64,000 nt of DNA, from NCBI RefSeq assembly GCF_016031655.1, contig NZ_JACCHQ010000001.1, positions 496,001-560,000 of the forward strand. Direction: 5' to 3'. The notes under the pieces were generated by a model. It was not told the origin of the DNA and did not search any database. It saw only the letters and a program-made list of their open reading frames with translations. This stretch comes from Bradyrhizobium glycinis. GTDB taxonomy: Bacteria; Pseudomonadota; Alphaproteobacteria; Rhizobiales; Xanthobacteraceae. Position numbers and translations under genes: made by a program. Of the stretch, positions 8,130 through 38,036 are shown piece by piece. Position 1 is the stretch's first letter, and every line of letters starts with the position of its first letter.

Positions 8130-9218
8130 ATGAAGAGAAGAGACTTCATCAAGGTCACAGGACTTGGTGCGGCCGGCGCCGCCACGCTCGCGGCGCCCGC
8201 GATCGCGCAGTCGATGCCGGAAATCAAATGGCGCATGCCGACGAGCTGGCCGAAATCGCTCGACACGCTGTTTGGCGGCGCCGAGATGATGTGCAAGATG
8301 GTCGCCGAGGCCACCGACAACAAATTCCAGATCCAGATCTTCGCGGCCGGCGAAATCGTGCCGGGCCTGCAGGTGCTCGACGCCGTGCAGAACGGCACCT
8401 GCGAGATCGGCCACACCGCGTCCTATTATTATTTCGGCAAGGACCCGACCTTCACCTTCGGCTCGGCCGTGCCGTTCGGTCCCAACATGCGCATCAACCA
8501 GGCCTGGTACATGCTGGGCGGCGGCCGCGACGTGCTCAACGAGTTCTACAAGGGCTACAACGTCGTCTCGCTGCTCGCGGGCAACACTGGCTGCCAGATG
8601 GGCGGCTGGTTCAGGAAAGAGGTCAACACGCCCGACGATCTCAAAGGCATGAAGTTCCGCATCGGCGGCTTCACCGGCCGCGTGCTCCAGAAGCTCGGCG
8701 TGGTGCCGCAGCAGCTTGCCGGCGGCGATATCTATCCGGCGCTGGAGAAGGGCACGATCGACGCCGCCGAATGGGTCGGGCCCTATGACGACGAGAAGCT
8801 CGGCTTCTACAAGATCGCGCCGCACTATTATTATCCCGGCTGGTGGGAAGGCGGACCGATGCTGATGGCATTCGTCAACCTCGACAAATGGAACGCGCTG
8901 CCGAAATATTACCAGAGCGTGCTGGAGCAGGCCGGCCACTACGCCAACAATTACATGATGGCGCGCTACGACAACGCCAATCCGCTGGCGCTGAAGAAGC
9001 TGCTGGCGGGCGGCACCAAGCTGCACGCCTTCTCGCCCGCGATCATGGATGCCTGCTACAAGGCCGCCAAGGAGCTGCACGCCGAAGTCGCTGCGACCAA
9101 CCCGAACTTCAAGAAGGTGCACGACTCGCTCGCCAAGTTCACGAGCGACGGCTACTCCTGGTTCCAGGTCGCCGAGGTCGGCTACGACATCTTCATGGCG
9201 CGGCGCTCGCAGAGCTGA
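8130..9218 (+). CDS. TRAP transporter substrate-binding protein, TakP-like (copy 2)
   Basis: This is a second 362-residue twin-arginine exported binding protein (MKRRDFIKVTGLGAAG), clearly paralogous to the one at 6875. The same [19 protein letters not shown] and [10 protein letters not shown] blocks are present, with many substitutions elsewhere (for example SYYYFGKDPTFTFG instead of [14 protein letters not shown]). The two copies probably bind related 2-oxoacids with different affinity or specificity. A GGTAGGAAATC site precedes the ATG at 8130. A strong hairpin follows the stop. The nearest permease genes are ten kilobases downstream on the other strand. Confidence 0.88.
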   Translation: MKRRDFIKVTGLGAAGAATLAAPAIAQSMPEIKWRMPTSWPKSLDTLFGGAEMMCKMVAEATDNKFQIQIFAAGEIVPGLQVLDAVQNGTCEIGHTASYYYFGKDPTFTFGSAVPFGPNMRINQAWYMLGGGRDVLNEFYKGYNVVSLLAGNTGCQMGGWFRKEVNTPDDLKGMKFRIGGFTGRVLQKLGVVPQQLAGGDIYPALEKGTIDAAEWVGPYDDEKLGFYKIAPHYYYPGWWEGGPMLMAFVNLDKWNALPKYYQSVLEQAGHYANNYMMARYDNANPLALKKLLAGGTKLHAFSPAIMDACYKAAKELHAEVAATNPNFKKVHDSLAKFTSDGYSWFQVAEVGYDIFMARRSQS

Positions 9219-12871: not shown

Positions 12872-14521
<1,650 letters not shown>

Positions 14522-14529
14522 TCAGCGCT

Positions 14530-14843
14530 TCACGCGGCCTTCTTCGTCGCGGCGGTCTTCTCGACCACGCCCAGCAAATCGCTCTCCTTCATGATGAGAA
14601 GTTCTTTGCCGTCGATCTTCACCTCCGTGCCGGACCATTGCCGAACAGCACCCGGTCGCCGACCTTCACATCGAGCGGCACCAGCTGGCCCTGTTCGTTG
14701 CGGCCACCGGGCCCGGCGGCGATCACCTCGCCCTCCTGCGGCTTTTCCTTGGCGGTGTCCGGAATGATGATGCCGCCAGCAGTCCTCTCCTCGGCATCGA
14801 TGCGTCGCACCAGCACGCGATCATGCAATGGACGGAAATGCAT
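14530..14843 (-). pseudogene. groES: 10-kDa co-chaperonin GroES with a one-base frameshift
   Basis: The frame starts at the ATG 14843 ([19 protein letters not shown], with GGAGG at 6-base spacing) and follows GroES to [10 protein letters not shown]. At about 14637-14638 one base is missing, so the product ends NGPARR at 14619 after 74 residues. Restoring one base gives the standard continuation [20 protein letters not shown] and a stop at 14530, for 104 residues, the usual GroES length. The lost part contains the C-terminal strand of the heptamer interface. Either this copy is inactive, as other groESL copies would allow, or the base was lost in sequencing or assembly. Confidence 0.85.
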
Positions 14844-14849
14844 GCACAT

Positions 14850-15067
14850 CCTCCCCTACAATTCAGCGATGTCATAAAAACCGGGGCGGAACCGGCCGCC
14901 GGCAAAATCGACCTAGGCGCGGCAAAGATGAGGTCAAGAGGGTCTACGAAAATTTTTTCGACATCGCCGGAGAGGTTTCCGCGACGAATTGTCGTGACAC
15001 TCCAGGACCGAGCGGCGCCCCTGCCGGCTTTCCGCAGTGCGGTAGGTCCGTCCCTTCAACTATCCTC
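14850..15067. other. groES upstream region
   Basis: The stretch holds the groES leader and the sigma-32-like promoter listed separately. No CIRCE-type TTAGCACTC repeat is visible, so HrcA control is not indicated. No gene is supported. Confidence 0.5.
14911..14938 (-). promoter_or_regulatory. Sigma-32-like promoter of groESL
   Basis: On the minus strand CTTGAC is followed after 15 bases by CCTAGGT. The same layout with the same spacing occurs before the hsp20 gene (16543-16570), which strengthens the assignment to RpoH. Confidence 0.65.
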
Positions 15068-15304: not shown

Positions 15305-16207
15305 TCAGCCACGATCGCGAAGGCGCGGAGATCCATGCAAACGGGAGCGCATCGCGCTGCGGATCTTTTGTAGTGCGCGAACCTCGATCTGCCGGACCCG
15401 CTCGCGCGACACGCCGAAACTGCCGGCAAGCTCCTCTAGGGTCTTCGGCTGTTCGGCCAGGAATCGCGCTCCGACGATATGGCGCTCGCGGGGGTTAAGG
15501 ACAGCGAGCGCGTCGTTCAGCGCGCTGCTCAGCCTGTTGCGATCCTCCAGCTCAGCCAGCAGCGTTTCGGGATCGGGCGCCGGATCGACGAGCCACTCCT
15601 GGATTTCCTCGGACCCGTCTTCCCGCGTCGTGGGCAGGTTGAGCGAAGTGTCGCCCCGCATCCTGCCGTTCATCTCGACGACCTCACACGAGGCTACTTT
15701 TAGTTCGCCGGCGATATATTCGGCCTGCTCCGGCGACAGATCGACGTCGTCGCTCGCAGAGATTCGGCTCTTTAGTCTTCGCAAGTTGAAGAACAGCTTT
15801 TTCTGGGCGGCGGTCGTGCCCATCTTCACCAACGACCAGGACCTCAGAATATATTCGTGGATCGTCGCCTTGATCCACCACATCGCATAGGTCGCAAGCC
15901 GAACGCCTTTGTCGGGTTGGAAGCGTTTCACCGCCAGCATCAAGCCGACATTCGCCTCCGAGATCAGGTCAGCGACGGGAAGACCATAGCCGCGATACCG
16001 CAGCGCCAGCTTGGCGGCCAGTCGAAGGTGGCTTGTAACCAAGCGATAGGCCGCCTCGCGATCACCATGCTCGCGCCAGCGCCGCGCGTACATTGCTTCA
16101 TCGGCGGCGTCCAACAGCGGGTACTTGCGAATGGCGGTCAGGTACCGGCAGAGCCCGCCTTCCGATTGGATCGCGGGCAGATTCGATCGGGCGGACAAGG
16201 TGCTCAT
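15305..16207 (-). CDS. rpoH: Heat-shock sigma factor RpoH (sigma-32)
   Basis: The 300-residue sigma factor has region 2 (about 55-125, with LISEANVGLMLAVKRF and ATYAMWWIKATIHEYILRSW), the diagnostic RpoH box QKKLFFNLRR at 135-144, and a region 4 helix-turn-helix ending GVSRERVRQIE. It directs RNA polymerase to heat-shock promoters, here most likely those of groESL and hsp20. The ATG at 16207 has GGAGG eight bases before it; a TTG two codons upstream is too close to that site. The leader carries a ROSE-like hairpin, so translation is probably released by heat. A glycosyltransferase remnant begins at its stop codon. Confidence 0.95.
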   Translation of the reverse strand: MSTLSARSNLPAIQSEGGLCRYLTAIRKYPLLDAADEAMYARRWREHGDREAAYRLVTSHLRLAAKLALRYRGYGLPVADLISEANVGLMLAVKRFQPDKGVRLATYAMWWIKATIHEYILRSWSLVKMGTTAAQKKLFFNLRRLKSRISASDDVDLSPEQAEYIAGELKVASCEVVEMNGRMRGDTSLNLPTTREDGSEEIQEWLVDPAPDPETLLAELEDRNRLSSALNDALAVLNPRERHIVGARFLAEQPKTLEELAGSFGVSRERVRQIEVRALQKIRSAMRSRLHGSPRLRDRG

Positions 16208-16300
16208 TTCCAATTCCTCCTTCAGAGCAAAGTGGCTGAGCTAACCGAGCATGCGCCTGGGCCCAGAAGCGGCGCCCAAGCGATGCCAGCGGCGCTCACA
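16208..16300 (-). promoter_or_regulatory. ROSE-like RNA thermometer in the rpoH leader
   Basis: Reading the minus strand, the leader ends TTTGCTCTGAAGGAGGAATT just before the rpoH ATG. TTGCTC can pair with the Shine-Dalgarno GAGGAA with a G opposite a G in the middle, which is the hallmark of ROSE elements (the U(U/C)GCU motif facing AGGAGG). The thermosensing hairpin spans about 16213-16233. Upstream GC-rich inverted segments could form the additional hairpins usual for ROSE. The 5' limit is approximate. Known B. japonicum ROSE elements include one before rpoH1. Confidence 0.65.
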
Positions 16301-16542
16301 AAATGTCGTATCTTCCGAATTGTTCCTTCGAGAAATAAGAGCTGTGCCGGGCTCCTGTGGGTGGCGATCAGCGGGCGGTGAATTCGACAATGGCCTTGCC
16401 GGCGGTCGATTATCGACGGGGGCCCCAGTATGGGGTGGTTGCAGCGCCAAGGGGGCCGTCCGCAGCGGCGGTGATGCGAAGCGCACAATCGGCCGAAGCC
16501 GGTCCGGGAGGGCAAAAATGCAATTCGAACGCGTATTGCGCT

Positions 16543-16570
16543 CTTGAAAACAACCCGCGCCGCTCTAGGT
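16543..16570 (+). promoter_or_regulatory. Sigma-32-like promoter of the hsp20 operon
   Basis: CTTGAA at 16543-16548, 15 bases, then TCTAGGT at 16564-16570. Elements and spacing match the groESL promoter at 14911-14938. Confidence 0.65.
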
Positions 16571-16673
16571 CTTGGGTGCCACATGTGTGGCGCCGGACGC
16601 CATCAGGGTCCGGTCAAGGTCGCCGGAAGACCGGTGTTGCTCCTATCCATGTTGCTCCAAGGAGGATGTGGTT
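16571..16673 (+). promoter_or_regulatory. ROSE RNA thermometer upstream of hsp20
   Basis: The leader ends TTGCTCCAAGGAGGATGTGG, four bases before the ATG-containing TTATG. The left arm CCATGTTGCTC (16647-16657) pairs with the Shine-Dalgarno arm (16662-16671) with a G-G mismatch at 16654/16665, a U-U mismatch and one bulged G. This is the known ROSE 3' hairpin design, which melts on heat to expose the ribosome site. Upstream GC-rich inverted segments (for example around GGTGCCACATGTGTGGCGCC at about 16574-16593) can form the accessory hairpins. Confidence 0.75.
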
Positions 16674-17126
16674 ATGAGAACTTACGAAATGCCCCCGTTC
16701 TGGCGCTCGAGCGTCGGCTTCGATCGTCTGTTCGACCTCGTCAACGACGCAGCGAAAGCGGACGACGATCATCCGCCGTACGACATCGCGCGTACCGGTG
16801 AGAACCAGTACCAGATCACGCTGGCACTGGCGGGCTTCAGCCCGGAGGAGATCACCATCACCGCCGAGCAATCGACCCTTACGGTTGAGGGGCGCGAGCC
16901 CAGCAAAGGTGATCAAGACTACCTGTACCAGGGAATCTCCCTGCGGCCGTTCCGCCGCGTTTTCAACCTGGCGGACTATGTCCAGGTCAAGGATGCGACG
17001 TTCGAAAACGGCATGCTGAAGATCGCTCTGGTTCGGGAAGTGCCGGAGGCGATGAAGCCACGTCGTATCGCGATCGAAATCGCCGGCAACGACAACAAGC
17101 AAATCGAAGGAAAGCAGACGGCCTGA
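16674..17126 (+). CDS. Small heat-shock protein Hsp20, class A (IbpA-like)
   Basis: The 150-residue protein has an N-terminal MRTYEMPPFWRSSVGFDRLF segment, an alpha-crystallin domain at about residues 36-130, the conserved FENGMLKIAL motif at 110-119, and a short C-terminal tail. Such proteins form oligomers that hold unfolding proteins for later refolding. The ATG at 16674 is the only start compatible with the family N-terminus and the AGGAGG site inside the ROSE hairpin. It resembles the class A group (HspA/B/H) of Bradyrhizobium. Expression should be controlled at transcription by RpoH and at translation by the ROSE element. Confidence 0.92.
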   Translation: MRTYEMPPFWRSSVGFDRLFDLVNDAAKADDDHPPYDIARTGENQYQITLALAGFSPEEITITAEQSTLTVEGREPSKGDQDYLYQGISLRPFRRVFNLADYVQVKDATFENGMLKIALVREVPEAMKPRRIAIEIAGNDNKQIEGKQTA

Positions 17127-17224: not shown

Positions 17225-17710
17225 ATGCCACTACGCGATCTCATTCCCCGGAATAACGGCTCTCGCGATCTGAGTACGCACCGCAGCGAAGCCAATCCGT
17301 TTCTCGCGCTTCATCGCGAGATGAATCGGCTGTTCGACGATGCGTTCCGCACGTTCGACGTCGCTCCGTTTGGCTCCCAGGCGATCGGATGGCCGAACCT
17401 CGAACTCAATGAGACCGAGAATGAAGTCAACGTCATCGCCGAGCTCCCCGGTCTCGAGGAGAAGGACGTCAACGTCGAACTGAGGGATGGCGTGTTGACC
17501 ATCAGCGGCGAAAAAAGAAGCGAGACAGAAGACAAGGAGCGCCGCTTCAGCGAGCGCTACTACGGACGCTTCGAGCGCTCCGTCCCGGTCGAGGATGTCG
17601 ACCAGGACAAGGTCGAGGCGTCATTCAAGAATGGCGTGCTCACCGTGACACTGCCGAAGTTACCGACTGCGCAGCACAAGGTGAAACGGATCGCCATCAG
17701 CGGCAAGTAA
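17225..17710 (+). CDS. Small heat-shock protein Hsp20, class C-like
   Basis: The 161-residue Hsp20 starts MPLRDLIPRNNGSRD and has a crystallin domain from about residue 55, with ELPGLEEKDVNVEL at 73-86 and FKNGVLTVTLPK at 134-145. It is quite different from the preceding Hsp20 and fits the second (class C, HspC/HspF-like) group of rhizobial small heat-shock proteins. A strong GGAGGAAAGCT site precedes the ATG at 17225. No ROSE-type TTGCT lies before it, so it is probably read from the upstream promoter as a second operon gene. The two proteins are likely to make separate oligomers. Confidence 0.9.
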   Translation: MPLRDLIPRNNGSRDLSTHRSEANPFLALHREMNRLFDDAFRTFDVAPFGSQAIGWPNLELNETENEVNVIAELPGLEEKDVNVELRDGVLTISGEKRSETEDKERRFSERYYGRFERSVPVEDVDQDKVEASFKNGVLTVTLPKLPTAQHKVKRIAISGK

Positions 17711-19018: not shown

Positions 19019-20623
19019 TCAATTCTTCGGCTGGCCGAAATCGAGTGGCGGTGGCAGCTCGACGTCCGGGATCTCGATCTTGATCTTGTCCAGGTCCACT
19101 TTCACTGGCGCATCCAGCAGTCCCGTCACCGTGATCGGGAAGGCGATGACGACCGCGACCATGATCGCCTGCAGGCCGATCCAGGGCATTGCGCCCCAGT
19201 AGATGTCCGAGCTCTTGACCTCCTTCGGCGCCACGCCGCGCAGGTAGAACAAGGCGAAGCCGAAGGGGGGATGCAGGAAAGACGTCTGCATGTTGACGCA
19301 AAGCATGACGCCGAACCAGATCAAGGCGGCGTCTGCGCCCACAACGGGGGCAAGCAGCTTCTGCGCGATGGGCGCAATCATCGGGATGATGATGAACGCG
19401 ATCTCGAAGAAATCGAGGAAGAAGGCGATGAAGAAGATGAACAGGTTGATGAAGATGAGGAAGCCCCAGACGCCGCCCGGCAGCGACGTCAGCATGTGCT
19501 CCAGCCAGACACCACCGTTGCAGCCGAGAAAGACGATCGAGAAACACGTCGATCCGATCAGGATGAAGGTCACCATGCAGGTGATGCGCATGGTGGTCTC
19601 ATAGCCCTGCTTGACCAGGGTGCGCAGGTCAGGGATCCTGATCGCCTCGATGCAGACCCAGGCCACCGCGAGATAGGCAATTGCAAAGGCGATCTTGAAC
19701 GGCAGATTCGGCGTGAAGTAGATGCCGATGATGGTGCCGATTCCGGCAGCGGCAACGCCGACGAGCAAGATCCTGTGACCGGCCGAGCTGAAATCCTTGT
19801 GATGGATGACGGCGAGGACGATCGCACCGACGGCGCCCATCGCGCCTGCTTCGGTCGGCGTTGCGAGGCCCAGCATCATCGTGCCGAGCACCACGAAGAT
19901 CAGAACGGCGGACGGAATGATGCCCAAAAGGCATTTGCGCCAGAGCGCCCAGCCCTTGAGCGTCCTCGCTTCCTTGGGCACCGCCGGAACATGGCCCGGC
20001 TTGACGATGCTCAGAACGAAGGTGTAGCCCGCGAACAGCGCGATCTGGAGGATCGATGGCCCCCAGGCCCCCAGATACATGTCGCCTACCGACTTGCCGA
20101 GCTGGTCCGCGAGCACGATCAGAACGAGCGAAGGAGGCACCAGCTGGGTTATGGTGCCGGAGGCCGCGAGCACGCCGGTGATGTAGCGCACGTTGTAGCC
20201 GTAGCGGATCATGACCGGCATCGAGATCAGCGCCATCGCGATCACCTGCGCTGCCACGGTGCCTGTGATGGCCCCGAGGATGAAGCCGACGATGATCACG
20301 GAATAGCCGAGACCGCCGCGAACGGGGCCAAACAACTGCCCCATCGAATCCAGCATGTCCTCTGCGAGGCCGCATCGTTCGAGGATCGCGCCCATGAACG
20401 TGAAGAATGGGATCGCCAGCAACAGCTCGTTGGCCAGAACGCTGCCGTAGATGCGCTCCGGGATCGCCTGGAGGAAGCTGAACCCGAAAAACCCCAAATG
20501 GATCGCGAGAAATCCGAACGAAAGCCCGAGGGCGGCCAGCGTGAAAGCGACCGGAAAGCCGATCAGCATCGCCAGCACAAGTCCGCCGAACATCAGCGGC
20601 GGCATCATTTCGATCGTGATCAT
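19019..20623 (-). CDS. dctM: TRAP transporter large permease subunit DctM (copy 1)
   Basis: The 534-residue polytopic protein has about 12-14 helices with typical DctM motifs: PFFTFMGAILERCGLAEDML, GVLAASGTITQLVPPSLVL and the C-terminal SFLHPPFGFALFYLRGVAP. It forms the ion-coupled channel of a TRAP system that takes up an organic acid delivered by a DctP protein. Its ATG overlaps the stop of dctQ by four bases. The long version (over 500 residues) and its C-terminal tail KIEIPDVELPPPLDF resemble the permease at 25491. The cognate binding protein is probably one of the TakP-like genes at 6875 or 8130. Confidence 0.92.
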   Translation of the reverse strand: MITIEMMPPLMFGGLVLAMLIGFPVAFTLAALGLSFGFLAIHLGFFGFSFLQAIPERIYGSVLANELLLAIPFFTFMGAILERCGLAEDMLDSMGQLFGPVRGGLGYSVIIVGFILGAITGTVAAQVIAMALISMPVMIRYGYNVRYITGVLAASGTITQLVPPSLVLIVLADQLGKSVGDMYLGAWGPSILQIALFAGYTFVLSIVKPGHVPAVPKEARTLKGWALWRKCLLGIIPSAVLIFVVLGTMMLGLATPTEAGAMGAVGAIVLAVIHHKDFSSAGHRILLVGVAAAGIGTIIGIYFTPNLPFKIAFAIAYLAVAWVCIEAIRIPDLRTLVKQGYETTMRITCMVTFILIGSTCFSIVFLGCNGGVWLEHMLTSLPGGVWGFLIFINLFIFFIAFFLDFFEIAFIIIPMIAPIAQKLLAPVVGADAALIWFGVMLCVNMQTSFLHPPFGFALFYLRGVAPKEVKSSDIYWGAMPWIGLQAIMVAVVIAFPITVTGLLDAPVKVDLDKIKIEIPDVELPPPLDFGQPKN

Positions 20624-21159
20624 TGGGTCGGCCGCTCGTATTTCGCATCGATGGTGACTTCACCGCGCAAGGCGGCGGCGCGCTTGATGACCTCCGAGAC
20701 ACCTTGCAAAGCCACCATGAAGAATCCGGCCGGCAGGACAAACTTGATCGGCCAGCGCAGGAGGCCGCCCGCATTGTTGGACATTTCGCCGATGACGAAC
20801 GAGTTGTAGAACATCGCCCAGGACAGGTAGCTGAGGAGCAGGCAGGCCGGCACGAGGAAGACCAATGTCCCGATCAGGTCCAGCCACAGCTGGCCGCGTT
20901 CGGAGAGCATGAGATAGAGGATCTCGACGCGGACGTGCTCGTTGCGCTTGAAGGTGTAGGACGCGCCGAACATCACGACGACGGCGAACATGTACCACTG
21001 CGTTTCGAGCCAGCTGTTCGAGCTGTAGCTGAAGGCGTAGCGGATCATCGCATTCACAGCGCTGACCAGGCAGGCTGCGAGCACCAGAATGTTGCAGACG
21101 TTACCGATCTTTTCGTTCAGCCAGTCGATCGCCGTACTTACCGCCAACAATAGGCGCAT
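20620..21159 (-). CDS. dctQ: TRAP transporter small permease subunit DctQ (copy 1)
   Basis: The 179-residue protein has four predicted helices in the DctQ layout (about residues 18-40, 55-75, 95-120 and 135-160) and the motif NSWLETQWYMFAVVVMFGAS, typical of the subfamily that goes with TakP-like binding proteins. It scaffolds DctM in the inner membrane. The gene is first in a dctQM operon with a four-base overlap (ATGA). Confidence 0.9.
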   Translation of the reverse strand: MRLLLAVSTAIDWLNEKIGNVCNILVLAACLVSAVNAMIRYAFSYSSNSWLETQWYMFAVVVMFGASYTFKRNEHVRVEILYLMLSERGQLWLDLIGTLVFLVPACLLLSYLSWAMFYNSFVIGEMSNNAGGLLRWPIKFVLPAGFFMVALQGVSEVIKRAAALRGEVTIDAKYERPTQ

Positions 21160-36314: not shown

Positions 36315-36565
36315 TCCGATGCGGCTGCTGGTCGCATCCGGTTCGACTTGATTCCGACAGGACCACCTTTATTTCTCAACACGAACAAGAATCCGGGCCC
36401 CTCTGGCGAGGACGCCGACAATGTCGGCAAACCTCGTGATGTCGGATGACCTGTCCCGCGCGAATGCGATGGATCGGCCGATTGTCGGGCCCCTGTTTTG
36501 TTTTCTCCGACCATTCGTCCCCATCGCAGCTCCGTGCGGCCATTTCGCAAGTTAAGGGAGCTACG
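36315..36565. other. Divergent intergenic stretch, no gene
   Basis: This separates the amidotransferase remnant (minus) from the TerB-like gene (plus). No conserved frame was found for the missing amidotransferase N-terminus. Confidence 0.4.
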
Positions 36566-37039
36566 ATGTCCGACGCCAAAACCTCAAATCCGATCGAGAT
36601 CGAGATCACTGAACCGTCCAGCCTGAATGAGCAGGCCGCGGCCGCCGTGGTGATCGTGGGCGCGCTGGTAGCGGTTGCCGACCGGCGCGTCTCGCCGGTC
36701 GAACGCGACGAGGTGATCCGTTTCATCAGAGACCGCAAGCTGGCGCCGCACATCGCCGACGAACGGCTCTGTGCGATGTTCGACGAACTCGCCGAACGGC
36801 TCGAAGAGCCGGATTTCGCCAACGTCGTGATCGATACGCTGCGACCGGTTTCGAACCTGCCGCTCTCGTCGCATCTGGTGGAGCTGTCGGAGCGCGTTGC
36901 TGCCGCAGACGAGGACGTACATCCCCACGAAGTCCAGGCGATCAAATTGTTGCGCTTGCTGACGCTGGTGCTGCCGCGCGCGAGGCCGGTCGGGGCGAGT
37001 GCGTCGGGCCCCAAGCTGCAGGCCGCCTCGAGGGAGTAA
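36566..37039 (+). CDS. TerB-like tellurite-resistance domain protein
   Basis: The 157-residue helical protein has a hydrophobic first helix (AAAAVVIVGALVAVADRRVS) and acidic metal-binding-like turns (SPVERDEVIRF and AADEDVHPHEVQAI). These are two EF-hand-like halves as in the TerB fold. The ATG at 36566 follows AAGGGAGCTACG. It opens a plus-strand cluster with a membrane protein, TerC and a YqhA-like protein. Confidence 0.75.
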   Translation: MSDAKTSNPIEIEITEPSSLNEQAAAAVVIVGALVAVADRRVSPVERDEVIRFIRDRKLAPHIADERLCAMFDELAERLEEPDFANVVIDTLRPVSNLPLSSHLVELSERVAAADEDVHPHEVQAIKLLRLLTLVLPRARPVGASASGPKLQAASRE

Positions 37040-37041
37040 GC

Positions 37042-37404
37042 ATGAGCACGATTTCGAACGAGCGCGCCAGGCAAACCGAGGGGAACACCGACCAGATCGC
37101 CGGTGGAGACCCGCGCCTGGCCAAGCTCGTCGACCGCCTGCCGCCGCGCATGAGCGACACCCTGACCTATCTGCTCAAGCCGTCCAGCCGCTGGGTCAGG
37201 ATCCCCTCGGGCACGCTGCTGGTCGTCGGAGGTGTGTTCTCCATCCTGCCGGTGCTCGGCGTCTGGATGCTGCCGCTCGGCCTCGCGCTACTCGCCGAGG
37301 ACGTGCCTGCGCTGCGCTCCTCCCGTTCAAAGGTCTTCGACTGGATCGAGCGGCGCAAGCCGCATTGGCTCGATCCGTCGGCATCGAAGAATGATCAAAC
37401 ATGA
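37042..37404 (+). CDS. Membrane protein between terB- and terC-like genes
   Basis: The 120-residue protein has a basic N-terminal domain (RLAKLVDRLPPRMSDTLTYL) and one pair of hydrophobic segments (VRIPSGTLLVVGGVFSILPV and LGVWMLPLGLALLAED). A Trp- and Arg-rich C-terminus ends in RKPHWLDP. The family is not named, but similar proteins sit beside TerC genes. It begins two bases after the TerB-like stop and overlaps terC by four bases. Confidence 0.75.
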   Translation: MSTISNERARQTEGNTDQIAGGDPRLAKLVDRLPPRMSDTLTYLLKPSSRWVRIPSGTLLVVGGVFSILPVLGVWMLPLGLALLAEDVPALRSSRSKVFDWIERRKPHWLDPSASKNDQT

Positions 37405-38036
37405 CCGAATTCATCACCGCCGAAGCGCTGACCGCGCTGTTCCAAGTCATCCTGATCGACCTCGTGCTCGCCGGCGACAACGCCGTCGTCATTGGTCTCG
37501 CCGCGGCGGGCCTGCCGGACGGGCAGCGCCGCCGGGCCATCATCGTCGGCATCGCGGCCGCCACCGCGCTGCGCATCGCGTTCGCCGGCGTCGCGACCCA
37601 GCTCCTGCAGATCATCGGCCTGCTGCTCGCCGGCGGCGTGCTGCTGCTTTGGGTGTGCTGGAAGATGTGGCGCGAGTTGCGCGAGCACTCTGCGCATTCG
37701 CGGCAGCTCGCCTTCAGCCATGGCGGCGCGGAAGCTGCGCCGGTGCAGGGAAAGACCTTCGGCCAGGCGGCGGTGCAGATCGTCGCGGCCGACGTCTCGA
37801 TGTCGCTCGACAACGTGCTCGCTGTGGCGGGCGCCGCGCGCGAGCATCCCTACATCCTCATCTTCGGCCTGCTGCTGTCGGTTGCGATGATGGGCGTCGC
37901 CGCCGATCTGCTCGGCCGCGTGCTCCAGAAGCATCGCTGGGTCGCCTATGTCGGCCTCGCCATCATCATTTACGTGGCTTTCGAGATGATCTATCGGGGC
38001 TCGCTCGAGCTCGCACCCGTCATCGCGAGTCTCTGA
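37401..38036 (+). CDS. TerC-family integral membrane protein
   Basis: The 211-residue protein has the TerC/YjbE signature: VILIDLVLAGDNAVVIGLAA in the first helix and VAADVSMSLDNVLAVAGAA in the fourth, each with an Asp-Asn pair in the membrane. There are seven predicted helices. Members export Mn2+ or act in metal and envelope stress; the substrate here is inferred. The ATG overlaps the preceding stop (ATGA), so the three genes are translated together. Confidence 0.88.
   Translation: MTEFITAEALTALFQVILIDLVLAGDNAVVIGLAAAGLPDGQRRRAIIVGIAAATALRIAFAGVATQLLQIIGLLLAGGVLLLWVCWKMWRELREHSAHSRQLAFSHGGAEAAPVQGKTFGQAAVQIVAADVSMSLDNVLAVAGAAREHPYILIFGLLLSVAMMGVAADLLGRVLQKHRWVAYVGLAIIIYVAFEMIYRGSLELAPVIASL

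Follow-up and report, generated by a model that had tools for sequence, protein, structure and literature searches.

The window analyzed here, a 64,000-nt stretch of the Bradyrhizobium glycinis genome, carries a small heat-shock gene and a sigma factor gene placed back to back. On the plus strand, two hsp20 genes (150 and 161 aa) precede a gene for an SPW-domain protein; the opposite strand carries rpoH and then groEL. The best NCBIfam matches of the first Hsp20 are IbpA and IbpB, both under their cut-offs. When genome contigs were searched with the Hsp20 protein, 13 loci were recovered, 12 of them from Bradyrhizobium, the best being 97% identical (B. agreste). The features considered below are the following.

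15305-16207 (-): rpoH, sigma-32 factor, 300 aa (TIGR02392 rpoH_proteo, 352.1 bits, cut-off 323.1)
16201-16279 (-): ROSE-like element at the rpoH start (RF00435, 29.9 bits against a cut-off of 45; motif conserved in orthologues)
16297-16304 (-): ATTTTGTG, conserved block upstream of rpoH (strong, imperfect conservation among 15 regions)
16322-16326 (-): GGAAC, conserved block upstream of rpoH (in 15 of 15 aligned regions, some of them near-duplicates)
16543-16549 (+): CTTGAAA, probably the -35 box of a promoter of sigma-32 type serving the hsp20 operon (invariant in 11 upstream regions)
16564-16567 (+): TCTA block at the place of the -10 box (invariant in 11 upstream regions)
16578-16591 (+): hairpin I of the ROSE leader, outside the Rfam model (centroid and consensus folds)
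16593-16680 (+): Rfam ROSE match (71.2 bits, cut-off 45)
16593-16613 (+): hairpin II of the ROSE leader (RF00435 alignment, centroid and consensus folds)
16621-16636 (+): hairpin III of the ROSE leader (Rfam alignment, centroid and consensus folds)
16640-16678 (+): ROSE sensor hairpin IV (Rfam alignment, centroid and consensus folds, pairing energies)
16674-17126 (+): hsp20, IbpA-like small heat-shock protein, 150 aa (PF00011, 67.5 bits)
17225-17710 (+): second hsp20, 161 aa (PF00011, 83.1 bits)

The alignment of hsp20 upstream regions comprises 11 of 14 (L009, L013 and L015 were left out). CTTGAA is given as the sigma-32 consensus (PMC3669281). The CTTGAAA and TCTA blocks fit a sigma-32-type promoter, for which we infer activity and a transcript start near 16574.

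Several other features were recorded in the window. A groES-like segment, recognized by eye at about 14500-14870 (-) beside groEL, is split over two frames and is either broken or the product of an assembly error. A terC RNA motif (RF03067, 49.2 bits) at 36385-36454 (+) overlaps the start of a TerB-domain ORF (36446-37036), with a TerC gene downstream at 37401-38033. The TRAP transporter genes DctP, DctM and DctQ lie at 8130-9215 (+), 19022-20623 (-) and 20623-21159 (-), respectively.

The ROSE element in the hsp20 leader

A first-pass annotation had placed a ROSE RNA thermometer ahead of hsp20. Direct reading of positions 16571-16676 confirms the sequence features on which it was based: TTGCTC at 16652-16657, the Shine-Dalgarno (SD) sequence GGAGGA at 16661-16666, the ATG at 16674-16676 and a repeated GTTGCTCC are all present as described. 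The search that it proposed, with the Rfam ROSE covariance model, was run on the whole window and returned a match to RF00435 at 16593-16680 (+), scoring 71.2 bits against a gathering score of 45 bits (E = 1e-8) and ending seven bases inside hsp20. Genome-wide (7.8 Mb), this match has an E value of 3.0e-10 and is the top of three found at E≤10. The resemblance of the hsp20 leader to ROSE is far beyond chance. The leader also has the published hallmark of the family, U(U/C)GCU opposite the SD (PMC3669281), in the form of UUGCU (16652-16656) imperfectly paired with GGAGGA (16661-16666). Finally, ROSE leaders of small heat-shock genes have between two and four hairpins; here there are four, with a PF00011 gene downstream. 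The assignment of a ROSE before hsp20 is thus strongly supported by the Rfam score, the downstream gene and the genome-wide E value, and the start proposed for it, 16571, is sensible, as the conserved hairpin at 16578-16591 stands 5' of the Rfam match. As far as its features could be tested computationally, the leader qualifies as a ROSE thermometer, and it is a routine addition to a well-studied family.

ROSE matches over the cut-off were obtained in 31 of the 60 genomes searched, own included (30 of the 36 from the genus and 1 of the 24 others). The genome analyzed here has a second one, at G000:C35:95044-95160 (locus L002), scoring 56.1 bits. This element precedes another hsp20 pair, whose members show 57.5% and 54.3% identity to the pair in the window. 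RF00435 scans of the window revealed no ROSE before the second hsp20.

Four hairpins are common to the centroid fold and the consensus derived from 13 orthologues; at 37°C, the minimum-energy structure has an extra outer helix enclosing hairpins I and II. Compared with shuffled sequences, the 120-nt leader has a stability z score of -2.27, with 5 of 200 shuffles as stable. Hairpin IV is predicted to cover the SD (16661-16666) as well as the start codon (16674-16676). Its sensor core, CATGTTGCTC, is kept in all 13 orthologues selected through protein matches. The sensor hairpin shows little covariation, because six of the ten pairs of the inner helix never vary. Two of the ten change on both sides, a number not above chance (311 of 500 shuffles were as high), and the RNAalifold covariation term is zero on the alignment used; the covariation score of the helix, 0.077, exceeds that of all 500 shuffles. 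When the inner-helix partners are slid against each other, the paired fraction does not exceed 64%, compared with 92% in the original register. In hairpin I, two pairs of the 13-orthologue consensus fold are still paired despite changes on both sides. Sequence, family membership, gene position, conservation and predicted fold are thereby established for the hsp20 leader.

The annotation further proposed a canonical G-G pair between G16654 and G16665. The two residues do face each other if C16655-G16664, U16656-A16663, C16657-G16662 and U16653-A16666 pair; in that register U16652 faces U16667 and G16651 is bulged, in agreement with the U-U mismatch and the single bulged G that had been described. 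The pairing itself fared less well, since nearest-neighbour energies, which ignore Hoogsteen pairs and triples, favour a form with G16654 bulged (-18.4 kcal/mol at 25°C, -13.2 at 37°C) over the G-G form (-16.0 and -11.5), the preference being 2.3 kcal/mol at 25°C or 1.7 at 37°C. By our own count from reported positions, G16654 and G16665 are the equivalents of G83 and G94 in the B. japonicum hspA ROSE, which the NMR structure presents as a syn-anti pair (PMC9450479). In the ROSE-like hairpin of P. stuartii oppF, whose crystal structure was reported in 2024, the G is bulged, and the authors of that study note that the NMR construct carried an altered loop (PMC11342760). A G16654-G16665 pair is possible, the published structures disagreeing on this G.

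At the position equivalent to G83, all 13 orthologues selected through protein matches have G; at that equivalent to G94, 12 have G and one (L015) has A. A more distant gene (L049) has C at the latter position, like L015 a single case. A wider set, alignment A3, contains 35 hairpins which we chose from 54 distinct hspA-type and 8 distinct rpoH-type leaders. In this set, 33 hairpins have a G opposite the conserved G. With the bulged register, columns 29-46 form a standard pair in 24 of the 35 (U-A in seven rpoH rows, G-U in 17 others), and the G-G register places U opposite U in 25. That all 35 have the conserved G is partly so by construction, because the motif pattern with which the hspA- and rpoH-type leaders were collected contained this G; we therefore give weight to the 13 protein-selected orthologues instead.

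Two readings of the leader compete with a ROSE thermometer of the usual kind. One starts from GTTGCTCC, an exact 8-mer repeat (16636-16643 and 16651-16658) that is able to pair with GGAG: the upstream copy had been credited with a possible alternative pairing register, and the two copies might compete for the SD as a two-register switch. Such a switch is barely credible, for the predicted pairing between the upstream copy and the SD is close to zero (0.0000 at 25 and 37°C, 0.0001 at 42°C, 0.0016 at 50°C), and a fold in which the downstream copy stays single-stranded is less stable by 8.9, 6.6 and 5.7 kcal/mol at 25, 37 and 42°C, respectively. Moreover, the exact repeat occurs in 7 of the 13 orthologues, window included, against 13 of 13 for the downstream motif CATGTTGCTC, and bases of the upstream copy are already in use: in the Rfam alignment and the consensus fold, CUC.UA (16640-16645) pairs with UA.GAG of the start-codon region. 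The alternative register was rejected for want of predicted pairing and of conservation among orthologues; the repeat itself is apparently incidental, arising from the strand that pairs with the start-codon region. The conserved CTTGAAA box upstream of the leader gives some weight to the other reading, according to which the leader is merely a structured RNA and heat control is exerted by transcription alone, from a sigma-32 promoter. The Rfam ROSE match and the invariant sensor core make this very improbable, and for ibpA of Pseudomonas putida, joint action of sigma-32 with a ROSE-like element is reported (PMC3669281).

The predicted response of the ROSE hairpin to temperature is small. ViennaRNA folding gives a mean exposure of the hsp20-leader SD of 0.19 at 20°C, 0.24 at 42°C and 0.29 at 50°C. 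The predicted unpaired value at 25°C is 0.23 for the SD of the ROSE hairpin, 0.82 for that of the second hsp20 (0.82-0.95 over 25-60°C) and 0.68 for that of the SPW gene. The ViennaRNA series is uninformative on function, and the small change is no counter-evidence to it, because naked MiniROSE RNA reportedly changes little between 20 and 45°C: its global melting is placed at 60-70°C, and its SD is described as opening at 45°C only if ribosome-bound (PMC4288164). To judge from Mesorhizobium loti, where one ROSE-bearing small heat-shock gene was reportedly not overexpressed after heat shock (PMC3989490), the presence of ROSE is not a guarantee of heat induction.

A ROSE-like element at the start of rpoH

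The minus-strand match to RF00435 sits exactly on the rpoH start codon and is the third-best in the genome (E = 0.047). The sequence UUUGCUC-UGAA-GGAGGA just before the ATG provides U(U/C)GCU opposite the SD; the gene that follows is rpoH instead of a small heat-shock gene, and the score, 29.9 bits, does not reach the gathering score of 45. Because of this last point we call the rpoH copy in the window ROSE-like, not ROSE.

The rpoH-side motif is found in 9 of 12 named Bradyrhizobium loci. In eight of the nine, RpoH matches over nearly its full length at 76% or more; the remaining one, L005, matches in the C-terminal half only. As for the three loci lacking the motif, L009 has no RpoH in the stretch, L015 has a partial RpoH, and the RpoH of L013 is more distant and in the other orientation. 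A covariance model, R1, was then built from ten rpoH leaders and searched against 146 Bradyrhizobium genomes. It scored at least 80 bits in 15 of them, own included, with weaker matches in 17 more; these scores are not independent evidence because the window and its close relatives trained the model, and R1, whose source alignment (A2) misplaces the outer stem of some rows by two to three columns, was used only for locating copies. RpoH of at least 72% identity is encoded by 14 of the 146 genomes, own included, and all 14 belong to the 15 identified with R1: an intact close rpoH orthologue goes with the ROSE-like element in 14 of 14 such genomes. In the fifteenth (G116), the frame from the start at the element is 25 codons long and RpoH matches in its C-terminal half only. 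When the 15 elements were scored with Rfam as an independent test, five were over the cut-off, eight fell between 34.1 and 44.6 bits, and 13 were listed at E≤1, the other two being the element in the window and its near copy. The cut-off therefore misses 10 of the 15 related copies, that of the window included.

Given the low score, the minus-strand match could be no thermometer at all but a strong SD hairpin that resembles ROSE by chance. Matches below the cut-off do occur in 3 of 14 control genomes at E≤10, and the predicted exposure of the rpoH element is almost flat, rising from 0.21 to 0.27 between 25 and 60°C. However, none of the control matches is found at E≤1, and a chance origin accords poorly with an E value of 0.047 and a placement exactly on the rpoH start, or with the scores of the orthologous elements. 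In addition, none of 20 housekeeping-type rpoH leaders, hand-picked from rows of about 61-62% identity, matches RF00435; this control leaves out G009, which has a known ROSE-like leader before an rpoH of 61%, and many others were unsampled. On balance we regard chance resemblance as improbable. The rpoH element is ROSE-like and probably works like the hsp20 ROSE.

More distant rpoH genes often carry related elements in another arrangement. Thirty RpoH loci were collected, and the 16 more distant ones (L100-L115) were scanned: 11 match RF00435 within the rpoH leader region at E≤1, four of them over the cut-off. In the distant types examined, the element precedes an ORF of 23-50 codons (with approximate, script-assigned start codons) whose end lies close to the rpoH start or as much as about 90 nt ahead of it. 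ROSE-type elements stand before a short leader ORF at L071, L073, L074, L076, L078 and L079, and also at L100, L101, L103-L107, L109 and L112. By eye, the short ORF resembles the Hsp20 N-terminus in two leaders, L076 and L079 (G150 and G124), and in G126 rpoH is apparently joined to the first Hsp20 codons behind a ROSE-type leader (L075, near 753, minus strand). These genomes (G126, G150 and G124) have an rpoH of about 60% identity with a ROSE-type leader, so that identity alone fails to separate the rpoH types.

Separately, a ROSE-like motif was seen before an ORF of 44-45 codons, with similar peptides, near rpoH at L056 (231, +), L058 (2971, -) and L059 (2963, -); the same arrangement recurs at L061 (2936, -) and L066 (2927, -). 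Rfam scores for two of these elements, 35.3 bits at L059 and 31.4 bits at L058, are below the cut-off.

The Hsp20-like leaders and the Hsp20-fused rpoH suggest capture of ROSE from decayed hsp20 genes. A broader proposition, of which this capture is a part, is that Bradyrhizobium ROSE elements have been repeatedly recruited by heat-shock sigma genes, either at the start codon or before a leader ORF, and that the back-to-back pair described here would form a coherent feed-forward RNA loop; we hold this to be evenly poised.

Proposed mode of action and relation to known thermometers

Altogether, we consider it very likely that the hsp20 leader is a ROSE RNA thermometer, in which hairpin IV blocks the start and heat opens it; rpoH is probably controlled likewise through its own element. 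At normal temperature, hairpin IV would pair UUGCUC with the SD and CUC.UA with the start-codon region; with SD and start codon paired, ribosomes could not start. Upon heating, the imperfect part around G16654 would yield, probably with help from the ribosome, and Hsp20 would be made; for this leader, the temperature response and the ribosome's part in it are what we infer from ROSE elements already studied. Next door, rpoH would follow the same mode of action by means of the ROSE-like element. Heat would then release the chaperone together with the sigma factor that probably transcribes its gene.

If the rpoH element works, direct temperature sensing by RNA would act on both the regulator and the chaperone, and if both elements work, heat would raise the two proteins together. 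The rpoH copies would also widen the range of ROSE targets, because a 2014 review describes ROSE elements as always tied to small heat-shock genes (PMC4166951). A 2024 paper reports ROSE-like elements also before ABC transporter genes (PMC11342760). The portion of the ROSE literature covered by our search contains no statement of ROSE before rpoH, which is weak evidence of absence; an earlier report of ROSE control for B. japonicum rpoH1 is possible.

Among known thermometers, the hsp20 leader resembles the hspA ROSE1 of B. japonicum, a member of the same genus, in having a four-hairpin leader before a small heat-shock gene (PMC9450479), UUGCU opposite the SD and, on the mapping used above, the G83 and G94 equivalents (PMC9450479, PMC11342760). 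It differs, on the same mapping, in having G16651 where the NMR structure has C80, which contacts U96, and in its loop, CAAG as opposed to the CUUG reported there (PMC11342760). The U(U/C)GCU principle and the association with a small heat-shock gene are shared with the ROSE-like elements of Pseudomonas ibpA and E. coli ibpA; those of Pseudomonas, in contrast to the leader in the window, are reported to be minimal two-hairpin forms (PMC3669281). The minus-strand element, in turn, is found on the same kind of gene as the E. coli rpoH thermosensor, through which translation of sigma-32 is reportedly released by heat (PMC4166951). The E. coli thermosensor, however, is described as taking in up to 229 nt of the coding region (PMC4166951), whereas that of the window rpoH would be a short leader hairpin at the start codon.
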